From NCBI RefSeq assembly GCF_900115815.1, contig NZ_FOXV01000003.1:310001-374000 (forward strand): a stretch of DNA of 64,000 nt. Direction: 5' to 3'. The first letter of the stretch is position 1, and the number at the start of each line of letters is the position of its first letter. Under the pieces are notes generated by a model, which did not search any database, was not told where the DNA came from, and saw only the letters and a program-made list of their open reading frames with translations. Both the position numbers and the translations under genes were made by a program. Positions 36,611 through 56,113 of the stretch are shown here, one piece after another. This DNA is from Roseivivax halotolerans (GTDB lineage Bacteria > Pseudomonadota > Alphaproteobacteria > Rhodobacterales > Rhodobacteraceae).

Positions 36611-36700
36611 GGAGAGGTGCCGGAGTGGTCGAACGGGGCGGTCTCGAAAACCGTTGACCCTTCACGGGGTCCGAGGGTTCGAATCCCTCTCTCTCCGCCA
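36611..36700 (+). tRNA. tRNA-Ser (anticodon CGA)
   Basis: A class II (long variable arm) tRNA of 90 nt with the 3' CCA encoded. Acceptor stem 36611-36617 pairs with the TCTCTCC segment, the anticodon stem GCGGT/ACCGT encloses the loop CTCGAAA with anticodon CGA at 36645-36647, and the T-arm carries GGTTCGAATCC. It decodes UCG serine codons. It stands alone between the DUF2059 gene and the nucleotidase gene. Confidence 0.97.
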
Positions 36701-36872: not shown

Positions 36873-38438
36873 TCAGTTGCCCATCACCGTGATGCGCCCG
36901 TCGGTATAGGGCTCGTAGGGCGTGTTCTCGGCGAGGTAGTCCGCCACGACCTCGGCAACGTCCGGACCGAAATCGTAGGCATTCTCGGCATCGACGAACA
37001 TCGAATACCCGTCGCCGCCGTTGCGGACGTAATTGTTGGAGACCACCGCGTAGGTCGCTTCGGGGTCGATGGCTTCGTCGCCGACCATCACCTCGGAGAT
37101 CCGGCTGCCGACCTCCGCCGAGGGATCGACCGTGAAGGACATGCCCGAGACCTGCGGGAACCGCCCGGCGCCCTCTTCCATCTGGCTCACGCCATTCTCG
37201 AGCGCGTCGATCAGATCCTGACCGGTCACTTCGAACGTGGAAAGCGTGTTTTGGAACGGCAGCACGGTGTAGACGTCGCCCATGGTCACCTCACCCGCCT
37301 CGATCGAGGCACGCAGGCCGCCGCCGTTCTGGAAGGCGATCACAACGCCCTGGTCGGACACGCGGTCGAGCATGGCGTCGGTGACGAGGTTGCCCATCTG
37401 GCATTCGCCGGCGCGGCAGACCTCGCGGGAGCCTTCGATGGCGCTTCCCGTCTCGGCGACGACTTCGTTGCGGAGCTCCTCGAGCGGCTGCGCCAGTTCC
37501 TCGATGCGCGCCACCGCCTCTTCGTCCTCGGCAACCGATGCGTCGAGAAGGATCGGATCGCCCGAGATCTCGGTGACCTCGCCGTTATCGTCGAAGGTCA
37601 GTTTCACCTCGCCAAGGTACTTGCCGTAGGCGTATGCGGTGACGATCGGCACGCCGTTGACCTCGGTCGGGTAGCTGCCCGCCGCGTCCTCATCGTCGTT
37701 CGACAAGAGCGTATGGCTGTGGCCGCCGATGATCAGGTCGACATCGCTGACCTCTTCCGCGAGTCGACGATCGGCGGGAAAGCCCACATGGGTCAGGAGG
37801 ACGATCTTGTTCACGCCCTGCTCGGTGAGCGCATCGACCTGCGCCTGTGCCGCGTCGATAATGGAGGAGAAGATCACCGTATCGCCCGGAGAGGAGGTCT
37901 CGGGGGTGTCCTCGGCAAGAACCGAGATGACGCCCACCTGCTCGCCATTCACATCGAGCGTCACCGACTTCTGCACCCTGTCGGCGAGCATGTTGTTCTG
38001 GCTCACATCGATGTTGGCGGAGAGGACCGGGAAGTCCACGAGATCGAGGAACTCCGCCAGACCTTCGGGCCCGTTGTCGAATTCGTGGTTGCCCACGGCC
38101 ATCGCATCATAGCCGATCTGATTCATGAACTCGGCCGAGATCTCGCCGCCATATTCGGTGAAGAAAAGCGAGCCCTGGAACTGGTCGCCCGCGTCGAGCA
38201 GCAGCACATTGTCGCCGGCCTCTTCGCGCGCCGCCTCGATTGCGGTGACCATCCGGGCGATACCGCCGAAGCACTCGCCGGCCTCGTTATCCTCGGGCGC
38301 GCAAGTCGAATCGTATGCGTTGATCGGCTCGAAGCGATCGTGGAAATCGTTGGTGTGCAGGATGGTCAGGTCCCAGGCCTGCGCGGTGCCGGCCGTCAAT
38401 GCCAGTGCACAGGTCGTTGTCAGAATACGGGCCTTCAT
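36873..38438 (-). CDS. Periplasmic 5'-nucleotidase/UDP-sugar hydrolase-type metallophosphatase
   Basis: A 521-residue exported enzyme of the UshA/CD73 family, which removes phosphate from nucleotides in the periplasm. Residues 1-21 are a signal peptide. The dinuclear metal site is seen as HTNDFHD, DAGDQFQGS, GNHEFD and GGHSH, and the C-terminal nucleotide-binding domain carries FQNGGGLRA and NNYVRNGGDGY. The start at 38438 has GGGAG just upstream. It probably scavenges phosphate and nucleosides; the window's nucleoside hydrolase could act on the products. Confidence 0.93.
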   Translation of the reverse strand: MKARILTTTCALALTAGTAQAWDLTILHTNDFHDRFEPINAYDSTCAPEDNEAGECFGGIARMVTAIEAAREEAGDNVLLLDAGDQFQGSLFFTEYGGEISAEFMNQIGYDAMAVGNHEFDNGPEGLAEFLDLVDFPVLSANIDVSQNNMLADRVQKSVTLDVNGEQVGVISVLAEDTPETSSPGDTVIFSSIIDAAQAQVDALTEQGVNKIVLLTHVGFPADRRLAEEVSDVDLIIGGHSHTLLSNDDEDAAGSYPTEVNGVPIVTAYAYGKYLGEVKLTFDDNGEVTEISGDPILLDASVAEDEEAVARIEELAQPLEELRNEVVAETGSAIEGSREVCRAGECQMGNLVTDAMLDRVSDQGVVIAFQNGGGLRASIEAGEVTMGDVYTVLPFQNTLSTFEVTGQDLIDALENGVSQMEEGAGRFPQVSGMSFTVDPSAEVGSRISEVMVGDEAIDPEATYAVVSNNYVRNGGDGYSMFVDAENAYDFGPDVAEVVADYLAENTPYEPYTDGRITVMGN

Positions 38439-38613
38439 TCTTGTCTCCCTCAGGTTGGATGACGTCAGCTTGGCGAGCCGCGCGGCGCAAGTCAAAACAC
38501 TCCGTGCCGCGGCCGATAATACCCTTGCGTAACGCGTGCGTGACGGGACCGTCGAGATCAATCCATCGGCACTTTTCGTCCAGCCCGGTCGCCCGCCCTG
38601 GCCGAGTCTGCCC

Positions 38614-39495
38614 CTAGCCCCGCGCCAGCACGAAGTCGTGCTCGACCTCGAAATACGGCGCATCCTGACCGGCGGCACTTAGCTTGGCCGCATCTTCTAC
38701 CCAAATGAATTCGGCCATAAGGCTTTCCTTCACACCGAAGACCGCGTCCGAGTGGATATAGGGGTCATCCGGGTCGAAGATGTGGGTGACCAGCGTCTCG
38801 TACCCCTCGGCCTCGATGATGTAATGCAGGTGCGCTGGCCGGAACGGGTGCCGTCCCAGCGCGCCCAGCATTTTGCCCACCGGTCCGTCATCCGGGATCG
38901 GGTAGAATTTCGGCTTCACCCCCCTGAACCAGTATTCGCCCTTCTCGTTGGAGCGGAAGACGCCGCGCAGGTTGAAATCGGGCTGCAATCCCTTCTGCTG
39001 GACATCGTAGAAGCCTTCGTCATTGGCCTGCCAGACGTCGATCTTCGCCCCTGCGATCGGATGCCCGTCGATGTCGAGGATGCGGCCCTTGACCAGCATC
39101 GGGTCGCCCTTTTGGTCGAGGCAGATATCGTCGCCGAGCGCGCGTTCGGGCGCATCGGCAACATGGAACGGCCCGAGAACGGTCGACTCGGACGCACCCG
39201 AAGGTTTGCGGTTGTTGATCGCGTCCACGAGCATCGACACTCCGAGGACGTCGGACAAAAGGATGAATTCCTGACGCCATTCGTTGCACATCTGTCCCGT
39301 GTCGGTGAGGAACAGGATCGCCTTCATCCACTCATCCTGCGTGGGTTCGACCTCTTTGACGGCCGCATGCAGATGCCGGACGATCGTCTCCATCACCTCC
39401 TTGAGACGCGCGTCCTCGGCGGTCGCATTGCGCGAGACGACGACATCGGCCGAGCTTTCCTCGGTGAAATAGCCCTGTTCGACTGGATCGGTCAT
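38614..39495 (-). CDS. Hydroxyquinol 1,2-dioxygenase (intradiol)
   Basis: A non-heme Fe(III) dioxygenase that opens hydroxyquinol (1,2,4-trihydroxybenzene) to maleylacetate. The 293-residue product has the helical dimerisation N-terminus and a catalytic beta-sandwich with the iron ligands Tyr163, Tyr198, His222 and His224 (GFYDVQ, KFYPIPDDGPVG, PAHLHYII). The neighbouring maleylacetate reductase makes hydroxyquinol a better guess than catechol. It is the last gene of the aromatic operon, 10 bp after the hydroxylase gene. Confidence 0.88.
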   Translation of the reverse strand: MTDPVEQGYFTEESSADVVVSRNATAEDARLKEVMETIVRHLHAAVKEVEPTQDEWMKAILFLTDTGQMCNEWRQEFILLSDVLGVSMLVDAINNRKPSGASESTVLGPFHVADAPERALGDDICLDQKGDPMLVKGRILDIDGHPIAGAKIDVWQANDEGFYDVQQKGLQPDFNLRGVFRSNEKGEYWFRGVKPKFYPIPDDGPVGKMLGALGRHPFRPAHLHYIIEAEGYETLVTHIFDPDDPYIHSDAVFGVKESLMAEFIWVEDAAKLSAAGQDAPYFEVEHDFVLARG

Positions 39496-39505
39496 AGCAT
39501 TCTTC

Positions 39506-41290
39506 CTATTCGGCGGCCTGACGCGCGGCGGCGCTTTCGGGTTGCAGGATCGCGGAGAAGACGCGGCGCAGCTCTCCTTCGGGATCTTCGGCCATCTGAG
39601 CGGCTCGGAAGCAGACGTGCTGGTCGGGCCGGGTCATCACCGCCCCCGTGTCGGACGTCTCGCGCAGCCGCGCCCAATCTCCGAGATGATCCTCGATCTC
39701 GCGGCGGGGGCCGATCACATGCACGTCGATTGCGAGTCCCGTCTCTGCGGCGACGTTGCGCGCCGCATCGGCCCAGACCTCGCCGCCGATGCCGGTGAAG
39801 ATCGCCCAGCGCCCCTTGCCGCAAAGATCGAGCGTCGAGACACGGCTGCCATCCGCGCGATAGAGCCAGGCATGCGGCAGGCGCGCGCCGGGCCAGGTCG
39901 TCGGCTGGTAATGCAACTCGGAATCACGCGCGAACCCCGGATCGGGCTGTCCGTCCCGGACCACCGCGCCGCTGTCGTAGCGCTGGTTCATCTCGACACC
40001 GTGGCAATCGAATTCGTATTTCTTGAACTCGATGGCCTTGCGGAGGGCTTCGCGCTGCGCTTCGGCCGCCGCGCTGGTCTCGACGCGCTTGTCCATATTG
40101 GCCTGCATCACGTCGGGATCGGTGCTTTCGGTCAGGCCCAGCGCTTCGAAAATCGCGCCGAATTCGCCGATCGACTGGTTGGCGCGGGTCACGATCTGCT
40201 TTGCCACCGGCGCGCGTTCTTCGGAATAGCTGGTCAGCAGCCCCGGACCGGCCTTGCCCGTCAGCACATGCGCGAGCTTCCAGGCAAGATTGTAGCCGTC
40301 CTGGATCGACGTGTTTGAGCCGAGCCCGTTTGACGGCGGATGCCGGTGCGCCGCATCGCCCATGATGAAGACGCGATCCGTCTGCATGTGCGTTGCGTAC
40401 ATGTTGTTCACCGTCCAGGTATTGGCGGAGAGAAGCTCGATCTCGAGCTCGGGATCGCCGACGAGCTGACGCGCCACCTCGGTCGCCATCGCCTCGTCCA
40501 CTTCCGGGGCTGGCTCGTTGATGTCATAGCCCCAGACGATAAGCCATTCGTTCCAGGGCCGAACCATCCGCACGAGGCCCATGCCGATCCCGCCGACATT
40601 CGCGCCGGGCTGCATCACCCAGTAAAGAACGGACGGGCGGTGCGCGACAAAGCGCGAGAGATCCGCGCGGAACAGGATGTTCATCGATCCGCCGATACCC
40701 ATCTGCCCCTCGAAGGGCAGGCCAGCGGTCTCGGCGACGCCCGAATTGCCGCCATCCGCACCGACAAGGTATTTCGAGCGGATGTCGAACTCGCGGCCCG
40801 TGAGCCTGTCGCGGCAGCGGGTCGTGACTCCGGCCTCGTCTTCCGAGTGGCTCAGATATTCCGTCTGCAGCCGCGCCTGCGTGCCGCGCGAACAGGCGGT
40901 CTTGAACAGCAAGGGTTCCATGAAGGTTTGCGGCAGATCGTTCATGTGGCACGGCGAGGAGCGCAGATGTTCGGCCCGGCTCTCGGGCGAATTGCCCCAG
41001 GACAGCATCCGGCCCAGCTCTTCTCCTGCAAGGCTCTCACAGAAGACGTTGTTGCCCATGAGATCGCCTTCGGTGGCGTGCATATAGGCTTCGTCCTCCA
41101 CCTCGCGGCCGAGATCGCGCAGCACCTCCATCGTGCGCTGGTTGGTGATATGGGCGCGCGGCGTGTTGGCGAGCCAGCGGTAGCGGTTGATCGCAACGTT
41201 CTCGACCCCGTAGCTCGACAAAAGCGCGGCGGTCGCGCTGCCGGCGGGTCCGGTTCCGACGATCAGGACATCGGTTTCAATCTCGGCCAT
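39506..41290 (-). CDS. FAD-dependent phenol-type hydroxylase (TfdB-like)
   Basis: A 594-residue class A flavin monooxygenase that hydroxylates a phenolic ring with NAD(P)H and O2. It carries the FAD-binding GTGPAGSA (about 12-19), the YLVGADGGNS motif and the GDAAHRHPPSNGLGSN segment, and a C-terminal thioredoxin-like domain, as in phenol and 2,4-dichlorophenol hydroxylases. Beside a hydroxyquinol dioxygenase it most likely makes hydroxyquinol from resorcinol, hydroquinone or a related compound; the exact substrate is not determined. Confidence 0.85.
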   Translation of the reverse strand: MAEIETDVLIVGTGPAGSATAALLSSYGVENVAINRYRWLANTPRAHITNQRTMEVLRDLGREVEDEAYMHATEGDLMGNNVFCESLAGEELGRMLSWGNSPESRAEHLRSSPCHMNDLPQTFMEPLLFKTACSRGTQARLQTEYLSHSEDEAGVTTRCRDRLTGREFDIRSKYLVGADGGNSGVAETAGLPFEGQMGIGGSMNILFRADLSRFVAHRPSVLYWVMQPGANVGGIGMGLVRMVRPWNEWLIVWGYDINEPAPEVDEAMATEVARQLVGDPELEIELLSANTWTVNNMYATHMQTDRVFIMGDAAHRHPPSNGLGSNTSIQDGYNLAWKLAHVLTGKAGPGLLTSYSEERAPVAKQIVTRANQSIGEFGAIFEALGLTESTDPDVMQANMDKRVETSAAAEAQREALRKAIEFKKYEFDCHGVEMNQRYDSGAVVRDGQPDPGFARDSELHYQPTTWPGARLPHAWLYRADGSRVSTLDLCGKGRWAIFTGIGGEVWADAARNVAAETGLAIDVHVIGPRREIEDHLGDWARLRETSDTGAVMTRPDQHVCFRAAQMAEDPEGELRRVFSAILQPESAAARQAAE

Positions 41291-41338
41291 GTCTGCTTCC
41301 TCCCTTCGCCGCGTGCGGCGTCTTGCAAATTGTCGGTC

Positions 41339-42385
41339 TCAGTCCCTGCGGTTGAGACGCCTCCGGATCGGAAAGAGCTCGATGCCCGTGCGTCCCGAGA
41401 CAAGGCCCCAGAGGCCGCCCGGCGAGAACAGCATCACGGCGATGCCGACCCCTCCCAGCACCATCAGATACCACGCCCCGAAATCGGCCAGCAGCGTTTG
41501 CAGGGCAAAGAAGACCAGGACGCCCACGATCGGTCCCTCGATCGTGCCGATTCCCCCGATCACCACGATGAAGATGACGAAGGCAGTCCAGTCGATGATC
41601 GAGAACGCGCTGTCGGGGCTGATCCGCCCGTTCTGCATGAAGATGAGCCCGCCGGCGATGCCAGTGCCGAAGGCCGCAACAAGGAAGACCAGCCATTTCA
41701 TGCGCGCGCTGTCGACACCAACCGATCGCGCAGCCTCCACGTTGTCGCGGAGCGCGGCGAGCGCGAGGCCGCGCTTGGTTCGCAGAAAAAGATAGATCCC
41801 GCCGATCGTCGCGACCGCAAGTGCCAGCGCCAGCCAATAGGCGAGGATGTCGCGCGCAGCGGACGCGCGGGTGTCGAAGATCATCTCGATCCACTCCACT
41901 CCCCACATGGCATCGCGCGCATCGCGTGGCAGGGACGTCCCGGTGCCGCCACCGACCGCCTTCCACTGCGCGACGCTGAGCCGCACGACCTCGGCCACCA
42001 CCCAGGTGCCGATGGCGAAATAGGCCCCTTGAAGGCGGAAGGCGAAGAACGCCATCGGGATGGCGAGGAGCAGAGCGAAGACCCCCGACAGCAGCAGCCC
42101 CGCCACCGGGTTCACCCCCCACAGGATCGCTCCGCCGAAGAGCATATAGGCCCCAAGGCCCACGAAAGCCTGCTGCCCCACGCTGACAAGCCCGCCATAT
42201 CCTGCGAGGAGGTTCCAGAACTGCGCCAGCGTCAGCATCGTCAGGATGAAGAACATGTCCTGGATGAGAGAGCGCGAGGCGAAGGCAGGAAGCGCCACGG
42301 CGATCACCAGCAGCGCCAGCGCCGCCAGAGCCGCGGCTTGCGACGCGGCGGTGCGCGTCACGACCGTATACTTGCCCGCCGCCAT
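41339..42385 (-). CDS. Branched-chain amino acid-type ABC transporter permease (LivM family)
   Basis: A 348-residue membrane subunit with about ten helices and the family motif YGGLVSVGQQAFVGLGAYMLF. Its start shares one base with the stop of the LivH-type gene (TGATG). The aromatic genes on both sides suggest the importer carries an aromatic acid or phenol rather than an amino acid. Confidence 0.92.
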   Translation of the reverse strand: MAAGKYTVVTRTAASQAAALAALALLVIAVALPAFASRSLIQDMFFILTMLTLAQFWNLLAGYGGLVSVGQQAFVGLGAYMLFGGAILWGVNPVAGLLLSGVFALLLAIPMAFFAFRLQGAYFAIGTWVVAEVVRLSVAQWKAVGGGTGTSLPRDARDAMWGVEWIEMIFDTRASAARDILAYWLALALAVATIGGIYLFLRTKRGLALAALRDNVEAARSVGVDSARMKWLVFLVAAFGTGIAGGLIFMQNGRISPDSAFSIIDWTAFVIFIVVIGGIGTIEGPIVGVLVFFALQTLLADFGAWYLMVLGGVGIAVMLFSPGGLWGLVSGRTGIELFPIRRRLNRRD

Positions 42386-43248
42386 CAGTCGAACGCCCTC
42401 GGAAAGAGGCCGCGTGGCCGGATCAGCAAGACGACGAGGAAGGCGATATGGCCTGCGAGGATCTGCCATTCTGGATTGATCTGCGCGCCCACGGTCTGCG
42501 CCACGCCGATGATGATGCCACCCGCCAGCGTGCCCCAGAGTGAGCCGAGCCCCCCGATAATGACCGCCTCGAAGGCGTAGATCAGACGCGCAGGGCCCGT
42601 GGTCGGGTCGAAATTTGCCCGCGTGCCAAGATAAAGCGCGGCGATCGTCACCACGATCATCGCGATGCCCGTGGCCTTGGCGAAGACGGAGGCCGGCTTC
42701 ACGCCCATGAGGCTTGCCGTGACCGGATCGTCCGAGGTCGCCCGGAAGGCCCGGCCAAGCGATGTGCGGTAGAACAGCCATTGCAGCGCCAGCGTCACCA
42801 GGATCGCCGAGGCGAAGGTCATGAGCGGCATGACGCCAAGCGAGATCGGCCCAAGCGGCACCGATGCGGTCTCGAGCCAGCCAGCGGGAATGCGGCGGCT
42901 ATCCGCGGAAAAGCCCTCCTGCAACGCGTTCTGCAAGAGAACGGAGAGGCCGAACGTGACGAGAAGCGGCGGCAGGATATCGGTGCCAAGCACACGGTTC
43001 AGCACCAGCCGCTGCAACGCGAAGCCGAGCGCGAACATGATCGGCGCGGCGATGGCCGCCGCGAGGAACGGCCCGAGCCCCAGCAGCGTCACGAGAACGA
43101 GGATCAGGTATGCCGCGAAGACGATGAGATCGCCGTGTGCGAGGTTCACCAGGCGCATGATCCCGAAAACGAGGCTCAGCCCGAGCGCAAAGAGCGCGTA
43201 GAGGCCGCCGAGCAGGATGCCCTGCAGGATGGTATCGATCCAGATCAT
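42385..43248 (-). CDS. Branched-chain amino acid-type ABC transporter permease (LivH family)
   Basis: A 287-residue membrane subunit with about eight helices and the LivH motif YALFALGLSLVFGIMRLVNLAHGD. The ATG at 43248 overlaps the stop of the upstream ATPase gene (ATGA), which fixes the start. Pairs with the LivM-type permease to form the channel. Confidence 0.93.
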   Translation of the reverse strand: MIWIDTILQGILLGGLYALFALGLSLVFGIMRLVNLAHGDLIVFAAYLILVLVTLLGLGPFLAAAIAAPIMFALGFALQRLVLNRVLGTDILPPLLVTFGLSVLLQNALQEGFSADSRRIPAGWLETASVPLGPISLGVMPLMTFASAILVTLALQWLFYRTSLGRAFRATSDDPVTASLMGVKPASVFAKATGIAMIVVTIAALYLGTRANFDPTTGPARLIYAFEAVIIGGLGSLWGTLAGGIIIGVAQTVGAQINPEWQILAGHIAFLVVLLIRPRGLFPRAFD

Positions 43249-43952
43249 GCGGCAGTCCCGAAATAGGCGTCGTGGATCTCTTCGCGGCTGAGATCGGCGG
43301 GCGCTCCGGACAACGTGACCCGGCCCTCCATCATGCAATAGACGCGGTCGGCGACCTTCATGGCCTGCCCGATATCCTGCTCCACGACCACGATGCTGGC
43401 CCCGGTCGCGCGGATCTGCGGAAACGCGGCATAAATGTCCTTGATGACCACCGGGGCGAGGCCGAGGCTGATCTCGTCGCACAACAGAACGCGCGGATTG
43501 GACATCAGCGCCCGGCCGATCGATACCATCTGCTGCTGCCCGCCCGAGAGTGCCGTTCCGGGCCGATCCCGGCGTTCCTTCAGGATGGGGAACAACTCGT
43601 AGACGCTTTGCAGCGTCCAGGGCCCGTTCACCTTGCGACGGTGGCAGCCCATCAGGAGGTTCTCCTCGACGCTGAGCGAAGGGAAAAGCTTGCGGCCCTC
43701 GGGGACCATCGCGATTCCGGCCGCCATGATGTCATCGGCCGCCGTCGCGCCGATCTCCCGGCCCTCGAACCGGACCATGCCGGGCGCCTGCGCGATCACG
43801 CCCGAGATGGAGCGCATCAGGGTCGTCTTGCCCGCGCCGTTCGCGCCGATCACGGCGACGGTTTCGCCCTCGGAGAGCGACACGTCGACACCGAACAGCG
43901 CCTGGAAGTCGCCGTAAAAAGCCGTCAGCCCTTTGGTCTCCAGAAGCGCCAT
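43245..43952 (-). CDS. ABC transporter ATP-binding protein (LivF family)
   Basis: A 235-residue ATPase of the Liv-type importer. Walker A GANGAGKT, signature LSGGQQQM and Walker B VLLCDEIS are intact. It starts at 43952, sharing one base with the stop of the LivG-type gene. Confidence 0.94.
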   Translation of the reverse strand: MALLETKGLTAFYGDFQALFGVDVSLSEGETVAVIGANGAGKTTLMRSISGVIAQAPGMVRFEGREIGATAADDIMAAGIAMVPEGRKLFPSLSVEENLLMGCHRRKVNGPWTLQSVYELFPILKERRDRPGTALSGGQQQMVSIGRALMSNPRVLLCDEISLGLAPVVIKDIYAAFPQIRATGASIVVVEQDIGQAMKVADRVYCMMEGRVTLSGAPADLSREEIHDAYFGTAA

Positions 43953-44674
43953 CAGACCTCGATCCCCAGATAGATTTCGCGCACCTCCTTGGAAGCCATG
44001 ATCGCGTCCGGTGCGCCGATCCCGATCACCTTGCCGAAATCGAGAACCAGTAGCCGCTCGACCACGCTGTTGAGCGCATGAAGCACGTGCTCGATCCAGA
44101 TGATCGTGACGCCTTCGGCATGGATGGCCTTGATCGTCTCGACCAACGCCACGCATTCGGCCTCGGTCAGCCCTCCGGCGATCTCGTCGAGCAGGAGCAG
44201 CTTGGGCCGGGTCGCCATCGCGCGCGCCATCTCGAGCCGCTTGCGCTGCAGGAGCGTGAGCCCGCCCGCCGGACGGTTCGCAACCTCGATAAGCTCGGTC
44301 CGTTCCAGCACCTCGGCGCAATCGTCGGTGACGGCTCGCTCCGGCAAGCCGCGGCCATGCGTGGCCGAGACCAGAAGGTTCTCGAAGACGGTCATCCGGT
44401 CGAACGGTTGCGGGATCTGGAAAGACCGTCCGATCCCCGAAAGGCAGCGCTGCATCGGCGGTGCCTTCGTCACGTCGCGCCCGTCATACTCGATCCGCCC
44501 TGCATTCGGCGACAGGTTGCCCGTGATCAGGTTGAACAGGGTCGACTTGCCCGCACCGTTCGGTCCGATGATGCCGAGCGCCTGCCCTTTCGGCACGTCG
44601 AACGACACGCCATCGGCGACCGTCAGGGCACCGAAGCTCTTCGTAACATTCTGCAACGACAGGATGGGCGTCAT
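43952..44674 (-). CDS. ABC transporter ATP-binding protein (LivG family)
   Basis: A 240-residue ATPase, partner of the LivF-type protein. Walker A is GPNGAGKST and Walker B LLLLDEIAGG. The usual LSGGQ signature is replaced by LTLLQRKRLE, a variant found in some LivG-type ATPases of aromatic-compound importers. It lies 58 bp after the binding-protein gene. Confidence 0.93.
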   Translation of the reverse strand: MTPILSLQNVTKSFGALTVADGVSFDVPKGQALGIIGPNGAGKSTLFNLITGNLSPNAGRIEYDGRDVTKAPPMQRCLSGIGRSFQIPQPFDRMTVFENLLVSATHGRGLPERAVTDDCAEVLERTELIEVANRPAGGLTLLQRKRLEMARAMATRPKLLLLDEIAGGLTEAECVALVETIKAIHAEGVTIIWIEHVLHALNSVVERLLVLDFGKVIGIGAPDAIMASKEVREIYLGIEV

Positions 44675-44732
44675 GGAAACCGCATATCTCGGAGGGTGCC
44701 CGCCCGGACGGGTATCCGGGCAGGCCAGTGCC

Positions 44733-46013
44733 TTACGAAAGGGGCTGCATCTCGCCCTGGGTCGGGATGTCGGGCGCGGTGGTGTTGTCGACCGTGACGA
44801 GATCGAACGTACCATCCTCGTTGCGCCGCCATTGCCCACCGACGAGCGGTGTCTTGCAGACGTTCTGCGCGGCGAAATCCGGCACGCCCTCGCCGTTCCA
44901 GGCCACCCGCCCGACGATCGTGTCGAGATCGGTCGATGCGATGGCGTCGGTGAGCTGATCGAGATCGGTGGGGTCTCCGGCCCGCTGGATGACGTCGGCG
45001 GCCGTTTCGAAAAGCGAGTGGATGAAGCCGATAGGCTGCGTCCAGGGCCGGCCCGTCGCATCGGTGAAGGCTTGCGCGAGCTCGGCGCAGCCCTGCCCCG
45101 TCAACGAGGAGGTGAAGGGATGGTTCGCCGACCACCAGACCTCGGACGAGAGGTTGTGCCCCGCCTCGCCGAGGGTCTCGACCGATTGCGGGAAGAGGAT
45201 CGCCTTCGCCACCGTGATCGCCTTCGGGGTGAAGCCCTGCTGGCTCGCCTGGTTGCGGAAGGTGGTGAAGTCGGGCGGAATCACGACGCCAGTCACGATC
45301 TCTGCATTGGCCTGTTTGAACGCGTTGATCTGCGCCGAGAAATCGTCGGTCAGGTTCTGGTAGCGCCCCGGGTCGATCGTCTCGTATCCGGCCTCGGCGA
45401 ACCCGGGCGCGACACCGACATTGGGATCGCCCCAAGCATTGCCGTCGGCATCATTCGGAAAGAGCCCGCCGACAACCTTGTTGGTCTCGAGCTGGTTCCA
45501 CATGTTGGTGAACACGGCGATGACGTCTTCCAACCCCCAGAAATAGTGGAACGTGTAGTCGAAGGGCCGCCAGCCCGACGGATCACCCGGATTGCCTTGC
45601 TGCCCGATGAACCAGGGCTGCCACGGCGCCATGGTCGAAATGGTCGGAATGCCTTCGCTTTCAGCCACGGTCGAGACTGGGTTCGTCGTCTCGGGCGTGG
45701 AGGCCACCAGCATCAGGTGGATCTCGTCGTCGATGATCAGCTCCTGCGCCACGTCGGCGGCACGGTTCGGGTTCGACTGGCTGTCCTTGACGATCACCTC
45801 GACATCGAGCCCCTGATCCGCGGCGATGCGGTTGAAGGCGTCGATCGTGAAGGCATCGGCTTCGGCAAACCCGGCAAGCGGGCCCGTCTGCGGGCTCACA
45901 TAGCCGATGCGGACGCGCGCGCCCTGTGCGAGCGCAGGCGCGGCGAGCGCTCCCGCACTGGTGACAAGGCCGGTCGCGGCAGCGGATTTCAAAAGGCGTC
46001 TTCTGGTCAGCAT
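44733..46013 (-). CDS. ABC transporter substrate-binding protein, Tat-exported
   Basis: A 426-residue periplasmic binding protein of the Leu/Ile/Val-type fold (peripla_BP_6), delivering substrate to the four Liv-type subunits. The N-terminus TRRRLLKSAA and hydrophobic stretch ending ALAQ form a twin-arginine signal peptide. The context (ring hydroxylase, two ring dioxygenases, maleylacetate reductase) makes an aromatic ligand likely, but this is inferred. Confidence 0.9.
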   Translation of the reverse strand: MLTRRRLLKSAAATGLVTSAGALAAPALAQGARVRIGYVSPQTGPLAGFAEADAFTIDAFNRIAADQGLDVEVIVKDSQSNPNRAADVAQELIIDDEIHLMLVASTPETTNPVSTVAESEGIPTISTMAPWQPWFIGQQGNPGDPSGWRPFDYTFHYFWGLEDVIAVFTNMWNQLETNKVVGGLFPNDADGNAWGDPNVGVAPGFAEAGYETIDPGRYQNLTDDFSAQINAFKQANAEIVTGVVIPPDFTTFRNQASQQGFTPKAITVAKAILFPQSVETLGEAGHNLSSEVWWSANHPFTSSLTGQGCAELAQAFTDATGRPWTQPIGFIHSLFETAADVIQRAGDPTDLDQLTDAIASTDLDTIVGRVAWNGEGVPDFAAQNVCKTPLVGGQWRRNEDGTFDLVTVDNTTAPDIPTQGEMQPLS

Positions 46014-46044
46014 CGTGGTCTCTCCTCCCTCGGTGTGAGCGTCA

Positions 46045-47100
46045 TCATGCGTCTGGCCGCCGGCCCTCCCAAGCCGCTTGCAGCAGATCCCGTATATCCT
46101 TCTGATCGAAGGGACGGGGATTTTCGTACTCGTTTTTCAACGCGATCTCGGATGCGCGGTCGAGATCGGCTTCGGACAGGCCGAGATCGGCCAGCCGCAA
46201 CGGCGCACCCGACGCCTCCGCCAGATCCCAGAGCCCGCCGCCGACAGAACCGCCGAAGATCTCGGCGACCGGATCGAGAGCGGCCGTGCCGGTCTCGTTG
46301 AAGTGCGCCGTATGCGGCAAAAGGATCGCGTGGGTATTGGCGTGCGGCATGTCGAAAGAGCCGCCCACCACATGCGCCAGCTTGTGATGCAGCGACATCG
46401 CGACATAGCCGAGCGCGGTGGAACACAGCCATGCGCCGTAAAGGAGCCGGGCGCGGATCTGGGCATCGCGAGGGCTCTTCCGCAGGTCCGGCAACGCGGC
46501 CTTGATCGCGCGAAGCGCATCCAGCGACATCAGCGTCGTCACGGGATTCGCGTCGGGCGCATAGATCGCCTCGACCGCGTGGGCCGCCGCGTTCAGCGCG
46601 GATTTGACCGACATATCGACCGGCAGATCGAGCGTCAGAGCGACATCGTAGATCACCGTCTCGGGCCGGATCGACGGATCGCGGCGAGTGGTCTTCTCGC
46701 CGTTCTCGGTCTCGCCCAGAATATCGGTCATCTCGGAGCCGGCATAGGTGGTCGGGATCGCAACCTGGTCGCATCCCCTGCGCGTGGCGATGGCCTTGCC
46801 GAGCCCGATGGTCGAGCCGCCGCCCAGCGCGACGACGCAATCCGCACCGGCCGCGTCATAGGCGTCGAGCGCGCGGGCGGTCACCTCGACCGGCGTGTGC
46901 ATCGCAGCCTCGGCAAAGGTGCCCGCGGCGAGATCTCCGAGCTGCTTGGCGAGTGTCTCTCCCGCCGCGTCCTGTTCGGGCGTGGTAAGCACCAAGGCGT
47001 GCGAGGCGCCGAGCCGGCGGAGCTCATCCCCGGTCTGCGCCAAGGTGCCCTCTCCGAAGACGACGCGCGTCGAGATGCCGGGAAAGACGAACGGGGTCAT
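46045..47100 (-). CDS. Maleylacetate reductase
   Basis: An iron-containing (group III) alcohol dehydrogenase-fold enzyme that reduces maleylacetate to 3-oxoadipate with NAD(P)H. The 351-residue product has GGGSTIGLGKAIA for nucleotide binding, TTYAGSEMTDILG, and the histidine-rich metal/active-site region SLHHKLAHVVGG with a later HANTHA. It starts at 47100, overlapping the esterase stop (ATGA). It acts directly after the hydroxyquinol dioxygenase. Confidence 0.9.
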   Translation of the reverse strand: MTPFVFPGISTRVVFGEGTLAQTGDELRRLGASHALVLTTPEQDAAGETLAKQLGDLAAGTFAEAAMHTPVEVTARALDAYDAAGADCVVALGGGSTIGLGKAIATRRGCDQVAIPTTYAGSEMTDILGETENGEKTTRRDPSIRPETVIYDVALTLDLPVDMSVKSALNAAAHAVEAIYAPDANPVTTLMSLDALRAIKAALPDLRKSPRDAQIRARLLYGAWLCSTALGYVAMSLHHKLAHVVGGSFDMPHANTHAILLPHTAHFNETGTAALDPVAEIFGGSVGGGLWDLAEASGAPLRLADLGLSEADLDRASEIALKNEYENPRPFDQKDIRDLLQAAWEGRRPDA

Positions 47101-47741
47101 TGCGCTCCTCCAAAGACGGTGGTGCCGCGCACGACATCCGAGAGGAGCGCATCGACGACTGACGCTTCCAGCGCCGATATCTCGTGATCCCGGCCGGGCA
47201 GCACGTCGCTCCGCACGCGCGCACCGCACGCCACGAGATCGGAGACGGCATCCTGGAAAGCCCAGGCCGGAATCCAAGGATCCTCGTCACCATTGCTGCA
47301 ATAGATCGGCAGGCCGGGCAGCTCCGCGCGGGGCAGATCTTCACTTGCCGCACCGACGCGGCATCCGGTCAACATCGCGGCCGCATCCGCGAGGCCGCCA
47401 CGCATCAGATGTTCGATGACGAGGCACGCCCCTTGCGAGAAACCGATCAGCACAACCGGACAATCCGGGCAGTCCGCGCGGGCCGCAGCCTCGGCATCGG
47501 CGACAACCTTTAGCGCCGCGCGAAGCTGCGTTTCAGTATCCTCGGTCAGCGTCTCGACGGCCTTGGCGTCATACCAGCCCTCGCCCTTTGATGCGGGCAG
47601 CACGTAGCGCACGCCCTCCACGGACAGACGGCGGACGAGGTTATCGAGCATGTAGTCCGGCGCTTGCCCGCGCCCGTGCAGCACCAACGCGACGGCTTTC
47701 GCCGCCGCGGGACCTGCGCCTTGTGTGACCAAGTCGGACAA
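47097..47741 (-). CDS. Phospholipase/carboxylesterase (MhqD-like hydrolase)
   Basis: A 214-residue alpha/beta hydrolase with an oxyanion HGRG (22-25), nucleophile GFSQG (Ser102), an acid near Asp154 and His186. It resembles the carboxylesterase that accompanies hydroquinone dioxygenases in quinone-responsive gene sets. It may release a phenolic from an ester or act on a ring-cleavage product; the substrate is unproven. It lies 4 bp after the VOC dioxygenase gene. Confidence 0.85.
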   Translation of the reverse strand: MSDLVTQGAGPAAAKAVALVLHGRGQAPDYMLDNLVRRLSVEGVRYVLPASKGEGWYDAKAVETLTEDTETQLRAALKVVADAEAAARADCPDCPVVLIGFSQGACLVIEHLMRGGLADAAAMLTGCRVGAASEDLPRAELPGLPIYCSNGDEDPWIPAWAFQDAVSDLVACGARVRSDVLPGRDHEISALEASVVDALLSDVVRGTTVFGGAQ

Positions 47742-47745
47742 GAGT

Positions 47746-48711
47746 TCAGGCGTCCTGGAAGCTGGCGGGCTCGAGCCCCTCGATGAGCTCCGCCTTTCGG
47801 TCCTCGAACCAGGGCGGGAACACCAGCGTTTGGCCGATCGCGTCGGCAGGCTCGTCCCGCGCCCAGCCTTCGGGAACCGTCCATGCCAGTTCGAACAGCG
47901 CGCCGCCGGGACTCCGGACGTAGCAGGACTTGAAATACATCCGGTCCTTCTGCTCCGAGATATCGGTGAAGCCGAGCCCCTCGATATGGGCGCGCAGGTT
48001 CATCTGGTTTTCTTCATCGCCGGTATTTAGCGCGAAGTGGTGAATCGTCCCGCCCGAGAGCGTCCAGGAGCCCTGCGCTTCGTCGCGGATCTCCATGACT
48101 TCGACGACACTGGTCGGACCATTGGCGTTCGGCACCTCGTAGGCCATGCCATGATCGTCGTCAGCCATCTTCTTGAGGGGAAGTGCGATGGTCAGGAACT
48201 CGTCCATCGCGGTCTTGTCCATCACCGCGACGACGCCGCCATAGATGCCCTTGATGCCATGCTCAGCAGTGACGCCCGCCTCTTCGCTGACGATGGACGG
48301 TCGCGGATCGCCCGGATTCTCCACGAGCTGCATCTCGATGCCGCAAGGATGGCGGAAATCGACCCGGTCGATACCGAAGCGGTTGCTTTTCGTGGCCTCG
48401 ATGCCGTGCTCGCCGAGACGGTTCACCCAGTAATCCGACGCACCTACGGGTATCGATTGCTGCACGATCTTGGATTGGTTCGTTCCGCGCCGTCCATAAA
48501 CGCCCGGCTTGCGGAACGGGAAGGTCGTGATGATCGTCGATTCGTCGCCGTTCTTCGATCCGTAGTAGAGATGGTAGACGGGGATCGTTCCGTCGAAGAG
48601 CACCGTGCGCTTTACGGAATGGAGCCCCAGCGTCTTGGTGAAGAAATCGAAGTCTTCCTGAGCCCCGTCGGTGCTCATGGTCAAATGATGATACCCCTTG
48701 ATCTGCGCCAT
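47746..48711 (-). CDS. VOC-family ring-cleaving dioxygenase (MhqO/PcpA/LinE-like)
   Basis: A 321-residue two-domain vicinal-oxygen-chelate protein. The likely iron ligands sit in GYHHLTM near the N-terminus, GGTIHHFALN in the second domain and LFELAW near the C-terminus, and the end WFEDRKAELIEGL is typical of MhqO-type proteins. Family members open hydroquinones between hydroxylated and substituted carbons. The start at 48711 has GGAGG before it. It is the first gene of the operon, divergent from the LysR gene. Confidence 0.86.
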   Translation of the reverse strand: MAQIKGYHHLTMSTDGAQEDFDFFTKTLGLHSVKRTVLFDGTIPVYHLYYGSKNGDESTIITTFPFRKPGVYGRRGTNQSKIVQQSIPVGASDYWVNRLGEHGIEATKSNRFGIDRVDFRHPCGIEMQLVENPGDPRPSIVSEEAGVTAEHGIKGIYGGVVAVMDKTAMDEFLTIALPLKKMADDDHGMAYEVPNANGPTSVVEVMEIRDEAQGSWTLSGGTIHHFALNTGDEENQMNLRAHIEGLGFTDISEQKDRMYFKSCYVRSPGGALFELAWTVPEGWARDEPADAIGQTLVFPPWFEDRKAELIEGLEPASFQDA

Positions 48712-48816
48712 GGGCCCTCCTCCCTGATCTTCGGTCTGACACGGCTGCGGCGCTCGGAAAGCGGCGCGGACAGGTGTCTCCACGGATGGAACGATACGCC
48801 GCCTGCACGGCAGGGC

Positions 48817-48841
48817 TATGCAATTTCATATCGGCAGCATA
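48817..48841. promoter_or_regulatory. Inverted repeat TATGC-N15-GCATA, likely LysR binding site
   Basis: Five-bp exact arms (48817-48821 and 48837-48841) lie in the 140-bp divergent gap, 10 bp from the lysR start and about 105 bp from the dioxygenase start. Size and place fit an autoregulatory LysR-type operator. Confidence 0.5.
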
Positions 48842-48851
48842 ACAATTCCTC

Positions 48852-49799
48852 ATGAAGTTCGAGGAAAAGCACCTGGTCCATCTGGCCGCCGTGATCGAAT
48901 ACGGTGGCGTCACCGCTGCCGCGGAGCAATTGGGACTGTCGCAACCGGCCGTCTCACGCACCTTGTCGGCGCTCGAAAAACGGGTGGGCGAGCCGCTTTT
49001 TCAACCCGGCAGGCGACCATTGCGCCCGACGGTGATCGGCGCGGAGCTGGGTCGTCACGGCCGCGTCATCCTCGAGGCGGCGCGCGAGGCGGCGGAGACC
49101 ATGTCGAGCTTTCGGTCGGGATCTTCAGGCAAGGTGCGGATCGCGGGCGTTCCCTTCTTCATGGACGCCTTCATCAGCGGCATGATCGGCGGCTTCCAGC
49201 GGATCGAGCCGGACATCCTCGTGGAGCAGGGGTATGGCAACCTTCAGGATCTCGAGAACGGCATCGCCTCCAAGCGGCTCGATCTGGCGATCTGTCCGCT
49301 TGGCGCGATAAAGCCCAAGCCGGAGTTCCGCTTCACCCCGATCCTCAAGGCGCGCAACGTGATCGCCTGCCGTCAGGGGCATCCGCTTCTGCGGCGCAAG
49401 AAGCTGAACCGCACCGACGTTGCGGACTTTCCCTGGGTCGCTCCCCTGCCCGGCTCGCCGCTCATGGCCGATTTGCACACGGTGCTCCTGAACCTCGGCC
49501 TGCAGGAGATTTCCATCCGCTATTCCGGCGGGTCGCTTCTGTCGGTGCTGAACTATCTTGAAGAGACGGACGCGCTGACGATCCTGCCCCATTCGGTGAC
49601 GTTCGCGCACCGCAAGGATCGCAAGGTCACGGTTTTGCCGCTCGATATCCCGCAGCCGCCACGATCCCTCGGCATCCTGCGCGCCCGCGAGGCGCAGCAA
49701 CCGGCGGCCGAGCATCTTGTGGCGCATATTCTCAAGGAGTTCGACGCGTTGCGGGCTGCGATCGAACGCCACCAGACCTCGGTCGTCTGGGGGCCCTGA
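48852..49799 (+). CDS. LysR-family transcriptional regulator
   Basis: A 315-residue LTTR: winged helix-turn-helix (about 5-65; GGVTAAAEQLGLSQPAVSRTLSALE) and a two-lobed effector domain (from about 90). It most likely senses an aromatic substrate or pathway intermediate and turns on the divergent operon at 48711-38614, an inference from position. A weak ribosome site precedes the ATG, as is common for autorepressed regulators. Confidence 0.92.
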   Translation: MKFEEKHLVHLAAVIEYGGVTAAAEQLGLSQPAVSRTLSALEKRVGEPLFQPGRRPLRPTVIGAELGRHGRVILEAAREAAETMSSFRSGSSGKVRIAGVPFFMDAFISGMIGGFQRIEPDILVEQGYGNLQDLENGIASKRLDLAICPLGAIKPKPEFRFTPILKARNVIACRQGHPLLRRKKLNRTDVADFPWVAPLPGSPLMADLHTVLLNLGLQEISIRYSGGSLLSVLNYLEETDALTILPHSVTFAHRKDRKVTVLPLDIPQPPRSLGILRAREAQQPAAEHLVAHILKEFDALRAAIERHQTSVVWGP

Positions 49800-49862: not shown

Positions 49863-51332
49863 TCATTCGGCCGGCGATGCCTCCGCTGCGCGGAACTCGC
49901 CCTTATCCTCGGTGGCAAGGCTGACCACGTAGATTGCGAGCCAGGACAGCGCGAAGCCGGGGATCATCTCGTAAAGCCCGGTCGCGGCCTTGAGCGGCGT
50001 GAAGATCCAGAGCCCGACGGTCACGGCGCCCACAACGAGACCCGACACGGCCCCGGCGCCGTTCATACGGGGCCAGGTGAGCGACAAGATGACGAGCGGT
50101 CCGAACGCCGCGCCGAACCCCGCCCAGGCGTTGGCGACAAGACCGAGAACCTGGCTCTCGGGATCACCTGCGATCAGTGCGGCGACGATGCCGACCGCGA
50201 CGACCGCGATACGTCCGACCGTTACCAGCGTGGTCTCGGAGGCGTTCTTGTTCAGGACGAGCTTGTAGAAATCCTCCGCCAGCGAGGAGGACGAGACGAG
50301 AAGCTGGCTCGACACCGTCGACATGATCGCCGCCAGAAGCGCCGCCAGGAGGAAGCCGGTGATCAGACCCGGAAAGAGGTTCTCCGCGAGATAGATGAAG
50401 ATCGTCTCGCTGTCCCCGATCTCGACGCCGTTCCGCTCGACATAGGCCCGGCCGAAGATGCCGACGCCCACCGCGCCAATAAGCGCGATGCCCATCCAGG
50501 CCATGCCGATATTGCGCGCGGTCGAAACCGCCGCGACGCTTTTCACGGCCATGAAGCGCACGATGATATGCGGCTGTCCGAAATAACCGAGGCCCCAGGC
50601 GAGAAGTGAGATGAACCCGATGAAGGTCATGTCGGCGGTCCAGAGGTTGAGACTGAAGCCTTCGACGCCCGACAGGGTCTCCTGCGCCTGACCGAAACCG
50701 CCGCCTTCACCAGCATAAAGCACGATCGCGGGCATGATGATCAGCGCCAGCATCATGATGAGACCCTGGCAGAAATCGGTGAGCGATACGGCGAGGAACC
50801 CGCCGACGACAGTGTAGGCCAGAACGACGCCGAGGGTCAGCCAGACCCCGAACTGGTAGCTGCCGTCGAATGCGCTCTGGAAGAGTTTCCCGCCTGCGAC
50901 GAGACCCGAGGCGGTGTAGACTGCGAAGAAGACCACGATGATGACCGCCGAGACCATGCGCAGCGTGCCGCCTTGCGAGGGGAAGCGATTGGCCAGAAAG
51001 GCCGGGATCGTCAGCGCGTTGTCATATCGTTCTGTCTGCTCGCGCAAGCGCGGCGCAACGACGATCCAATTGACCAGTGCCCCGATGAAAAGGCCGATCC
51101 CGATCCAGGCTTCCACGAGACCAGAGGCATAAAGCGCCCCCGGAAGCCCGAGCAATAGCCAACCGGACATATCCGACGCGCCCGCGGACAGCGCGGCGAC
51201 GGCCGGGGGAAGATTGCGTCCGCCGAGAATGTATTCCTCGGAACTCGAAGTGGCATTTCGATAGGCGTAAATCCCTATCCCGAGCATCAGGATGAAATAA
51301 GCCGCCAGGCTGATGAGAACTCCTAAAGACAT
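49863..51332 (-). CDS. putP: Sodium/proline symporter
   Basis: A 489-residue sodium:solute symporter (SSS family) with about 13 helices. It has GASDMSGWLLLGLPG and the family signature WGLGYFGQPHIIVRFMA. PutP identity rests on the similarity of these stretches; other SSS substrates remain possible. The start at 51332 has GGAGGG upstream; a longer frame to 51398 lacks one. It stands alone, and no putA is in the window. Confidence 0.92.
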   Translation of the reverse strand: MSLGVLISLAAYFILMLGIGIYAYRNATSSSEEYILGGRNLPPAVAALSAGASDMSGWLLLGLPGALYASGLVEAWIGIGLFIGALVNWIVVAPRLREQTERYDNALTIPAFLANRFPSQGGTLRMVSAVIIVVFFAVYTASGLVAGGKLFQSAFDGSYQFGVWLTLGVVLAYTVVGGFLAVSLTDFCQGLIMMLALIIMPAIVLYAGEGGGFGQAQETLSGVEGFSLNLWTADMTFIGFISLLAWGLGYFGQPHIIVRFMAVKSVAAVSTARNIGMAWMGIALIGAVGVGIFGRAYVERNGVEIGDSETIFIYLAENLFPGLITGFLLAALLAAIMSTVSSQLLVSSSSLAEDFYKLVLNKNASETTLVTVGRIAVVAVGIVAALIAGDPESQVLGLVANAWAGFGAAFGPLVILSLTWPRMNGAGAVSGLVVGAVTVGLWIFTPLKAATGLYEMIPGFALSWLAIYVVSLATEDKGEFRAAEASPAE

Positions 51333-51404
51333 AAAGGCCCTCCAATCCGTGTTGGTTTTATCGACATGGCACCATTCGCCTGCCGCAAGGCCGAGCATGT
51401 CTGA

Positions 51405-52558: not shown

Positions 52559-53539
52559 CTAGCCTTCGCTTGAGGCGCGCACGGGCGTCGCGATCCGCAG
52601 AAGGCTCTTCTGCAAGAGGATGAAGCAAAGAAGAAGCACGCCAATCACGATCTTCGTCCACCAGCTCGAGAGCGTACCATCAAAGACGATGTAGGTCTGG
52701 ATAAGCCCCATTGTCAGAACACCGAAGAGCGTGCCGACGACGTAACCGGCCCCGCCGGTCAACAAAGTGCCCCCGATCACGACCGCGGCGATGGCGGTCA
52801 ACTCGGTTCCGACCGTCGCGAGCGGATAGCCCGAACCGGTATAGATCGCGAAGACGATGCCCGAAAGGCCGGCCATCAAGCCAGAGAATGCGTAAATACC
52901 GATCGTCGTGCGTCCAACCTCGACGCCCATCAGGCGCGCCGTGTCGGGCCCGCCCCCGATGGCGAAGACGCTCGCCCCGAAGCGTGTGCGATGGGCAACG
53001 AGAGCGCCGCCCGCTATGGCGAGCAGCATCAACGCCCCGATCAGCGTGAACCGTCCGCCACCGGGCATACGCCAATGGCTGTCCTGCAGCGCCTCGAAGA
53101 AGGCATGATCGATCGGCACGGAATCGATGGTGAGCATGTAAGCCGCGCCGCGCGCCAGGAACATGCCAGCCAGCGTGACGATGAAGGCGGGCATCGCGAG
53201 CCCGTGTATGATCGCGCCCATCACGGCGCCGAACGCGGTCGTTACGACCAGCAACAGCGCGAAGACGATGATCGGATGAAGCCCTGTGTCCCTCAGCATC
53301 ACCGCGATGAAGACGCCCGAGAAGGCGATGACCGACCCGACGCTGAGATCGATGCCGCCCGAAAGGATCACGACGGTCATGCCGACGGCGACGATGCCGA
53401 GATAAGCATTGTCCGTCAGCAGGTTGCCCACGACGCGGGTCGACAGCATGAACGGAAATTGCAGCCAGCACAACAGGTAGGCTGTGAAGAAGATCGCGAT
53501 TGTCGCAAGCAGCGGGTAGAGGCGTGGATTGGGTCTCAT
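52559..53539 (-). CDS. yjfF: Sugar ABC transporter permease, YjfF-like
   Basis: A 326-residue permease of the BPD_transp_2 (RbsC) family with about nine helices. The [18 protein letters not shown] motif is present. Together with YtfT it forms the channel of a YtfQRT-YjfF importer, which in E. coli carries galactofuranose. It starts at 53539, overlapping ytfT (ATGA). Last gene of the sugar operon. Confidence 0.92.
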   Translation of the reverse strand: MRPNPRLYPLLATIAIFFTAYLLCWLQFPFMLSTRVVGNLLTDNAYLGIVAVGMTVVILSGGIDLSVGSVIAFSGVFIAVMLRDTGLHPIIVFALLLVVTTAFGAVMGAIIHGLAMPAFIVTLAGMFLARGAAYMLTIDSVPIDHAFFEALQDSHWRMPGGGRFTLIGALMLLAIAGGALVAHRTRFGASVFAIGGGPDTARLMGVEVGRTTIGIYAFSGLMAGLSGIVFAIYTGSGYPLATVGTELTAIAAVVIGGTLLTGGAGYVVGTLFGVLTMGLIQTYIVFDGTLSSWWTKIVIGVLLLCFILLQKSLLRIATPVRASSEG

Positions 53540-56069: not shown

Positions 56070-56089
56070 GACGTCTGTCCCGTGTCAGG

Positions 56090-56113
56090 GCCGGGGCGGC
56101 GATGCGCCCCGGC
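56090..56113 (-). promoter_or_regulatory. Intercistronic stem-loop between ytfQ and ytfR
   Basis: Perfect 9-bp GC stem (56090-56098 with 56105-56113) with a 6-nt loop and no T-run, just after the binding-protein stop. Such hairpins often protect the binding-protein mRNA so that it is made in excess over the membrane subunits. Confidence 0.6.

Follow-up and report, generated by a model that had tools for sequence, protein, structure and literature searches.

The window analyzed here is a 64,000-nucleotide stretch of Roseivivax halotolerans DNA (contig NZ_FOXV01000003.1, positions 310,001 to 374,000), and it harbors a compact operon predicted to break down aromatic compounds. Ten minus-strand genes run from 48711 down to 38614 behind a divergently transcribed LysR-type regulator (Table 1). 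They encode a PcpA-type ring-cleaving dioxygenase of the VOC family (hereafter VOC), a serine esterase (EST), a maleylacetate reductase (MAR), a five-part Liv-type ATP-binding cassette (ABC) importer with its substrate-binding protein (SBP), a flavin hydroxylase (FMO), and a hydroxyquinol-type intradiol dioxygenase (IDO). We recognize this operon as a variant of the hydroxyquinol/maleylacetate pathway that carries an added PcpA-type branch.

All ten genes and the regulator lie on the strand and at the coordinates given in a preliminary description of the locus, and its gene set is borne out by Pfam, NCBIfam, and relatives of solved structure in the Protein Data Bank (PDB). Pfam matches were obtained for VOC, EST, MAR, SBP, LysR, FMO, and IDO. 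Among the families shown, no NCBIfam match of the ten genes passed its cut-off, and VOC had no NCBIfam match. A single transcript is plausible for the whole run because five neighboring pairs either share up to 4 bases or lie at most 4 bases apart, and the remaining four are separated by no more than 58 bases. A sigma-70 consensus scan of 38350-48900, which says little, returned zero sites. The same gene run recurs in named genomes, and a chance arrangement is thereby excluded. The candidate LysR operator, TATGC-N15-GCATA, is kept in two relatives (L052 and L054), is one base off in a third (L053), and appears weaker by eye in the other six that were aligned.

Table 1. Predicted genes and candidate regulatory site of the aromatic operon, with coordinates in the window.
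Feature	Coordinates	Strand	Basis
LysR-type regulator, divergent from operon	48852..49799	+	Pfam PF03466 1.5e-27, PF00126 2e-17
Candidate LysR operator TATGC-N15-GCATA, beside LysR start	48817..48841	.	By eye; putative
PcpA-type VOC ring-cleaving dioxygenase (VOC)	47746..48711	-	4huz PcpA 1.2e-66
Serine esterase, carboxylesterase/acyl-protein-thioesterase family, MhqD-like (EST); TTG start	47097..47741	-	PF02230 2.2e-8
Maleylacetate reductase (MAR)	46045..47100	-	3hl0 1.4e-123, 3w5s 3.4e-122
Liv/HAAT-type substrate-binding protein (SBP)	44733..46013	-	PF13458 4.4e-36
LivG-like ABC ATPase	43952..44674	-	NF008449 1.2e-49, below cut-off
LivF-like ABC ATPase	43245..43952	-	TIGR03410 1.5e-64, NF008626 2.3e-63, both below cut-off
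LivH-like permease	42385..43248	-	TIGR03409 6e-41, NF008011 3.9e-26, both below cut-off
LivM-like permease	41339..42385	-	NF008450 3.1e-29, below cut-off
Group A flavin hydroxylase, HbpA/TfdB-like (FMO)	39506..41290	-	4cy6 HbpA 3.1e-178, 6u0p TfdB 6.5e-145; PF01494, PF21274
Hydroxyquinol-type intradiol dioxygenase (IDO)	38614..39495	-	8r2x 1.3e-99, 3n9t PnpC 2.8e-82, 1tmx 1.7e-71

The nearest solved relative of VOC is PcpA, matched over nearly its full length, followed by MhqO (3oaj). Two HH pairs (H8/H9 and H224/H225), R257, Y264, and E274 are invariant in 16 of 16 aligned sequences; we take these to include the His/His/Glu iron site and the active-site Arg and Tyr. On these residues, VOC is predicted to belong to the PcpA-type hydroquinone 1,2-dioxygenase family. 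EST retains a triad of S101 (within GFSQG), D153, and H185 in all 17 aligned rows, and its Abhydrolase_2 domain is accompanied by a weaker dienelactone-hydrolase (DLH) match of 4.1e-6. Its AlphaFold model (pLDDT 94.6) finds as best Foldseek match the phospholipase/carboxylesterase 4h0c and then acyl-protein thioesterases. FMO is a predicted hydroxylase of the HbpA/TfdB group, closest to 2-hydroxybiphenyl 3-monooxygenase (HbpA) and then 2,4-dichlorophenol 6-monooxygenase (TfdB). IDO is nearest to a 6-chlorohydroxyquinol dioxygenase (8r2x), then PnpC, then hydroxyquinol 1,2-dioxygenase (1tmx), and MAR matches two solved maleylacetate reductases, the second of which (3w5s) is presumably Rhizobium GraC. 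A predicted hydroxyquinol-type intradiol dioxygenase and a predicted MAR thus share one operon, as in the hydroxyquinol (maleylacetate) pathway. The importer, with two ATPases, two permeases, and one periplasmic type I binding protein, is a complete Liv/HAAT set. By eye, the N-terminus of SBP resembles a Tat signal; its PDB relatives are weak and mixed in kind, and its structure model (pLDDT 49.4) is too poor for a fold search.

The operon is real and conserved. A search with a profile built from VOC proteins returned 226 relatives in named genomes, and the best 80 loci, which were examined, fall in Rhodobacterales and Hyphomicrobiales. Carriers include Wenxinia, Palleronia, Yoonia, Paracoccus, Hoeflea, Rhizobium, Shinella, Mesorhizobium, Kaistia, and others; many are rhizobia, and the operon seems to be carried by many root- and water-dwelling bacteria. 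Within the same family, 16 of 295 genomes encode VOC at 65 percent identity or above, and a class-wide draw recovered it in 4 of 385 genomes at E 1e-80, the window's own genome being counted both times. The commonest gene order is a LysR gene divergent from IDO2-VOC-EST-MAR-SBP-LivGFHM-FMO-IDO, found exactly in 18 loci and with extra flanking matches in 6 more. IDO2 is a second intradiol gene that the window lacks; its single match in the window's genome is the operon's own IDO. Counted at 38 percent identity or above within the fetched stretches, where short contigs can cause an apparent absence, EST is present in 78 of the 80 loci, SBP in 71, MAR in 58, FMO and IDO2 in 51 each, and IDO in 47. 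In 77 of 80 loci a divergent LysR gene precedes VOC at a distance of at most 1.7 kb, and in 36 of 80 the first matched gene beyond EST is MAR.

Some relatives extend the set. Paracoccus- and Tabrizicola-like loci feature two binding proteins, an SDR, and a zinc alcohol dehydrogenase, and loci of Martelella, Rhizobium, and Agrobacterium add an acyl-CoA-dehydrogenase-like oxygenase, a flavin reductase, and a further alpha/beta hydrolase.

EST is closely tied to the VOC gene. EST follows VOC directly, on the same strand, in 77 of the 78 loci that offer at least 700 bases downstream of VOC (L054 and L094 were left out). In Rhizobium and Shinella, VOC-EST stands as a separate unit with its own divergent LysR gene, adjoining an IDO2-MAR-SBP-Liv-FMO-IDO operon. 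Two further loci (L064 and L130) feature IDO2-VOC-EST-MAR, with no match to importer or FMO within 10 kb on either side. The preliminary description had allowed that EST might act on an imported phenolic ester; its tie to VOC, which holds in L064 and L130 as well, does not favor this role and makes it more likely that EST acts on the VOC product. The same description left the choice between a branched pathway and a detoxifying arm. Branching is now the better supported of the two, since VOC-EST and FMO-IDO behave as separable units and MAR accompanies both. It also named separate regulation of the two dioxygenases as a point against its reading; gene order suggests such regulation in the Rhizobium and Shinella relatives, not in the window.

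The operon VOCs also stand apart in phylogeny. In a tree of 55 rows that includes 19 of the 80 operon loci and lacks PcpA itself, they fall into a single clade (100/100), and the generic, MnpC-like, LinE/dichlorophenol (LinE and RK1), and actinobacterial VOCs lie outside it, with the caveat that the bootstrap had not settled and the program flagged long branches. For comparison, we assembled 21 generic VOC homologues of the same family, about 35 percent identical: the 20 best-scoring matches in other genomes (G159 was skipped) plus the one in the window's own genome. MAR was matched in 58 of 80 operon loci vs 0 of 21 generic loci, with flanks of up to 10 kb in the former and mostly about 5 kb in the latter. 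What is peculiar to the operon VOC is therefore its gene company, MAR, rather than its pairing with an esterase. The pairing had been considered as a mark of the operon clade when BLAST gave 3 weak matches among the 21 generic loci, and it was abandoned when a profile hidden Markov model (HMM) found an adjacent, divergent EST-like gene in 17 of them. We thus treat the VOC-EST pair as ancestral and older than the operon pathway. The window's own genome provides an example, a second, generic VOC (G000 contig C27, L051 6950-8570) beside a divergent MhqD-like esterase with no MAR nearby. Its neighbors appear by eye to be a beta-ketothiolase-like and a reductase-like gene.

Clusters in Actinobacteria show other arrangements. 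Two Rhodococcus plasmids (L132 and L133) feature the pair in reversed order, esterase then VOC, and the accompanying genes encode a P450, a PDR/VanB-type reductase, a flavin oxidoreductase, an SDR, and an AHL-lactonase-family protein. L133 additionally encodes a formaldehyde dehydrogenase some 5 kb away from the pair. The substrate of these clusters may be methoxylated or bear a lactone. Plasmid pACHL02 of Pseudarthrobacter chlorophenolicus A6 (L036 10285-18361) encodes FMO-VOC-phospholipase-YceI-MAR-thiolase-CoA transferase in one run, and no aldehyde dehydrogenase is annotated in that stretch.

Several known systems resemble the operon in part. Resorcinol/hydroxyquinol pathways of the graABCD type combine a hydroxyquinol dioxygenase and MAR, as the window does, with a two-component hydroxylase. 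The window FMO, in contrast, is single-component, and VOC-EST is added; a graABCD-like acyl-CoA-dehydrogenase-like hydroxylase with its flavin reductase occurs in some relatives only. PcpA and LinE share with VOC the family and the conserved catalytic residues, and the linE locus likewise features a LysR gene before linE and an EST homologue as the second gene after it. On plasmid pCHQ1 (L137 6983-8496), two alpha/beta hydrolase genes directly follow linE, and one of these is the EST homologue. Unlike PcpA and LinE, the window VOC is joined to an intradiol enzyme, an HbpA-like hydroxylase, and a Liv importer. A linD-type dehalogenase adjoins linE, whereas none was identified in the operon neighborhood, where no direct search was made.

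The MnpC cluster of Cupriavidus (3-nitrophenol, aminohydroquinone) similarly groups a VOC protein (39 percent identical to the window's), a hydrolase, and a MAR-type gene, but its hydrolase is an amidase and it features a nitroreductase. Among four MnpC-like plasmid loci, named as such by their cluster make-up, three encode the amidase and none an adjacent esterase (in L149 an EST-like match lies some 5 kb off); no match to the window FMO, IDO, EST, or Liv proteins was found in the four at 1e-10. In the Bacillota, mhqED and mhqO-mhqD also join a VOC-type dioxygenase gene to a phospholipase/carboxylesterase-type hydrolase gene (PMC6798810; this and the other papers are cited for the excerpts available). 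The Staphylococcus aureus operon, as excerpted there, is mhqRED alone, under a MarR-type repressor and with no MAR, importer, or hydroxylase. The window therefore shares with the Mhq systems a VOC beside an MhqD-like esterase, but its unit is not free of ring-catabolic genes, as MAR, FMO, IDO, and the importer lie in the same run.

We propose a two-branch architecture that meets at maleylacetate, a reading that is well supported and that we hold to be probable. LysR would control the operon and the importer would take up a phenolic compound. In the first branch, FMO would ortho-hydroxylate a phenol resembling resorcinol or hydroquinone, and IDO would open the resulting hydroxyquinol to maleylacetate. 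In the second, VOC would act on a 2-alkoxyhydroquinone, for which 2-methoxyhydroquinone is the likeliest candidate, and cleave it between C-OH and C-OCH3 to give the methyl ester of maleylacetate. Hydrolysis of this ester by EST, either preceding or following the MAR reduction, would release methanol and yield maleylacetate. MAR would then lead to 3-oxoadipate, and genes outside the operon would provide CoA transfer and thiolysis; the window's genome has two PcaI/ScoA CoA-transferase family matches that pass the cut-off.

The proposed identity of the second substrate draws on chemical reasoning. PcpA-type enzymes cleave the ring beside a hydroxyl, and the acyl group that results includes the neighboring substituent. 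Cleavage next to chloride would lead to an acid chloride, next to an amino group to an amide, next to methoxy to a methyl ester, next to a thiol to a thioester, and next to hydrogen to an aldehyde. Plain hydroquinone would thus yield a semialdehyde, which a dehydrogenase would have to oxidize before MAR could act. No operon among the 80 loci contains an aldehyde dehydrogenase gene; a SSADH query found one match in the 80 stretches (L109, opposite strand, about 9 kb from VOC) and a match in 2 of the 21 generic loci.

Published systems provide the amide and ester cases. MnpC is proposed to cleave aminohydroquinone at C1-C2 to 6-amino-4-hydroxy-6-oxohexa-2,4-dienoate, and an amidase and MAR are proposed in the same cluster (PMC5604080). 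In Aspergillus niger, MhdA converts methoxyhydroquinone to 4-hydroxy-6-methoxy-6-oxohexa-2,4-dienoate, 4-oxo-monomethyl adipate builds up when the neighboring esterase gene omeA is deleted, and the authors propose a MAR-like reductase (PMC8336404). There too a ring-opening dioxygenase gene adjoins an esterase gene, and the window features the same combination of dioxygenase, esterase, and MAR-type reductase, although the dioxygenases match by analogy and not by homology. MhdA is by annotation of the homogentisate dioxygenase type, and the published scheme reduces before it hydrolyzes (PMC8336404); because MhdA belongs to another dioxygenase family, the likeness would be convergent. Finally, two-subunit hydroquinone dioxygenases, which are of another type, turn over 2-methoxyhydroquinone (PMC3222310, PMC3727088). 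Taken with the MnpC amide and A. niger ester cases, this makes methoxyhydroquinone the most economical substrate for VOC-EST-MAR, and we assign it tentatively, as a candidate held at somewhat less than an even chance.

Several observations weigh against this assignment. The locus L128 breaks the pairing, and a plasmid locus of Rhizobium johnstonii (L035) lacks EST. No EST match was found in the stretches around three VOCs of other genomes that are 47-49 percent identical (L175-L177); in L176 (8226-10937), from another family of the class, an intradiol dioxygenase gene is followed by a VOC gene with no esterase match. The 17 generic VOC loci with an adjacent EST-like gene indicate an old pair that also occurs outside the operon, and because such genes lie beside generic VOCs and close to linE, for which the named substrates are chlorohydroquinone and hydroquinone, an EST neighbor is not diagnostic of a methoxy group. 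Hydroquinone-thiol adducts would equally yield a thioester, a product suited to the EST fold. The window's genome contains 12 matches to aldehyde dehydrogenase families, none of them in the operon, so the argument from the operon's lack of such a gene is weakened to a hint; one lies at 57169-58686 in the window, in a pentose cluster about 8.5 kb from VOC, with weak matches to semialdehyde dehydrogenases that fall below cut-off. PcaF, likewise, was matched in this genome only below its curated cut-off. Genes for methoxy, methanol, or formaldehyde use were not identified among the recurrent neighbors, though no direct search for them was made.

The first of the competing readings treats VOC-EST as a detoxifying arm within a hydroxyquinol/resorcinol operon, in which hydroquinones arising in the pathway would oxidize to quinones and react with cellular thiols, VOC would open the thiol adduct to a thioester, and EST would serve as the thioesterase. 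The generic pairs, including that of the window's own genome, occur without a MAR match and are what this reading expects, as is a modeled EST fold nearest to carboxylesterases and acyl-protein thioesterases. Similarly, S. aureus MhqE and MhqD are encoded together in an operon induced by quinones, and the excerpts available describe related dioxygenases as opening quinone-S-adducts (PMC6798810). The separate clade of the operon VOCs and their frequent company with MAR argue the other way, and the position of VOC, often near the head of an importer-bearing run, suits carbon use. We regard detoxification as less probable than the methoxyhydroquinone reading, though a serious rival to it.

Slightly less probable again is that VOC cleaves hydroquinone or hydroxyquinol alongside IDO, with EST hydrolyzing either the lactonized product or a phenolic ester brought in by the importer. 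FMO and IDO do fit a route from resorcinol or hydroquinone to hydroxyquinol, and the weak dienelactone-hydrolase match of EST suits a lactone. Hydroxyquinol, moreover, needs no aldehyde dehydrogenase, and the genome encodes such enzymes outside the operon. The lack of an aldehyde dehydrogenase gene in the operons themselves counts against hydroquinone, however, and EST follows VOC even in L064 and L130, where importer and hydroxylase are without a match.

A halophenol pathway, in which FMO and VOC would act on chloro- or bromophenols, IDO on a halohydroxyquinol, and MAR would remove the halide, recalls PcpA, TfdB, and 6-chlorohydroxyquinol dioxygenase among the nearest solved relatives and a 2,6-dichlorophenol enrichment strain that carries FMO-VOC-hydrolase-MAR, but it is improbable given that the operon clade is separate from the LinE/dichlorophenol clade, that no dehalogenase came to light among the neighbors (no search aimed at one was made), that an acyl chloride should by chemical reasoning need no esterase, and that many carriers are rhizobia. 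In the excerpts of a Yoonia study, lake strains are enriched in tfdB, tfdF, and chqB, and this is read as chlorobenzene degradation (PMC10673129), which would also favor halophenols; as Yoonia vestfoldensis (L073) carries the operon, that signal may be the present operon. The presence of a hydrolase was considered as a means to tell halide from alkoxy substrates and was rejected, since the linE locus and the 2,6-dichlorophenol cluster also carry hydrolases.

The surroundings of the operon in the window are of other kinds. Next after the divergent LysR gene, on the opposite strand, lies a PutP-type sodium/proline symporter (49863-51398; TIGR02121, over cut-off). About 2 kb past the operon end is a plus-strand tRNA-Ser(CGA) (36611-36700), with a 5'-nucleotidase gene in between. 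Four products of a minus-strand pentose cluster (53536-63995) are matched above cut-off: L-arabinonate dehydratase, a GguC/AraD1 family protein, GguB permease, and YtfQ binding protein. The cluster also encodes a YtfR-like ATPase, matched below cut-off, and the aldehyde dehydrogenase mentioned above; it is probably a non-phosphorylating L-arabinose route.

The proposed methoxyhydroquinone branch would connect these bacteria to lignin. A review lists 2-methoxyhydroquinone, 2,6-dimethoxyhydroquinone, and hydroxyquinol, in the excerpts available, as lignin-model cleavage products of fungal MnP and bacterial DyP (PMC10795516); 2,6-dimethoxyhydroquinone also appears in a list for marine consortia that degrade lignin (PMC10269927); and bacterial pinoresinol routes that reach methoxyhydroquinone are described as not fully worked out (PMC12607616). 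In the available excerpts of the open-licence literature, we found no bacterial gene of the VOC family assigned to methoxyhydroquinone. The two branches would carry methoxyhydroquinone and hydroxyquinol to one intermediate. We suggest, with a little more reserve than for the substrate itself, a widespread bacterial lignin-methoxyhydroquinone pathway in which PcpA-type ring opening precedes demethylation and converts the methoxy group to a methyl ester, from which a dedicated esterase frees methanol, convergent with fungal MhdA/OmeA, and, more generally, that within the dioxygenase family a co-encoded hydrolase (esterase, amidase, or thioesterase) would tell the ring substituent.

If this is true, the methyl group would be freed as methanol and not as formaldehyde, and the operon would provide a gene marker for the methoxyhydroquinone sink step in coastal and root bacteria. 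The adjacent hydrolase would serve as a guide to the substrates of uncharacterized PcpA/MhqO-type dioxygenases. Likewise, MhqD-like esterases, so far given only a possible role in quinone catabolism in the excerpted literature (PMC6798810), would gain a concrete one.

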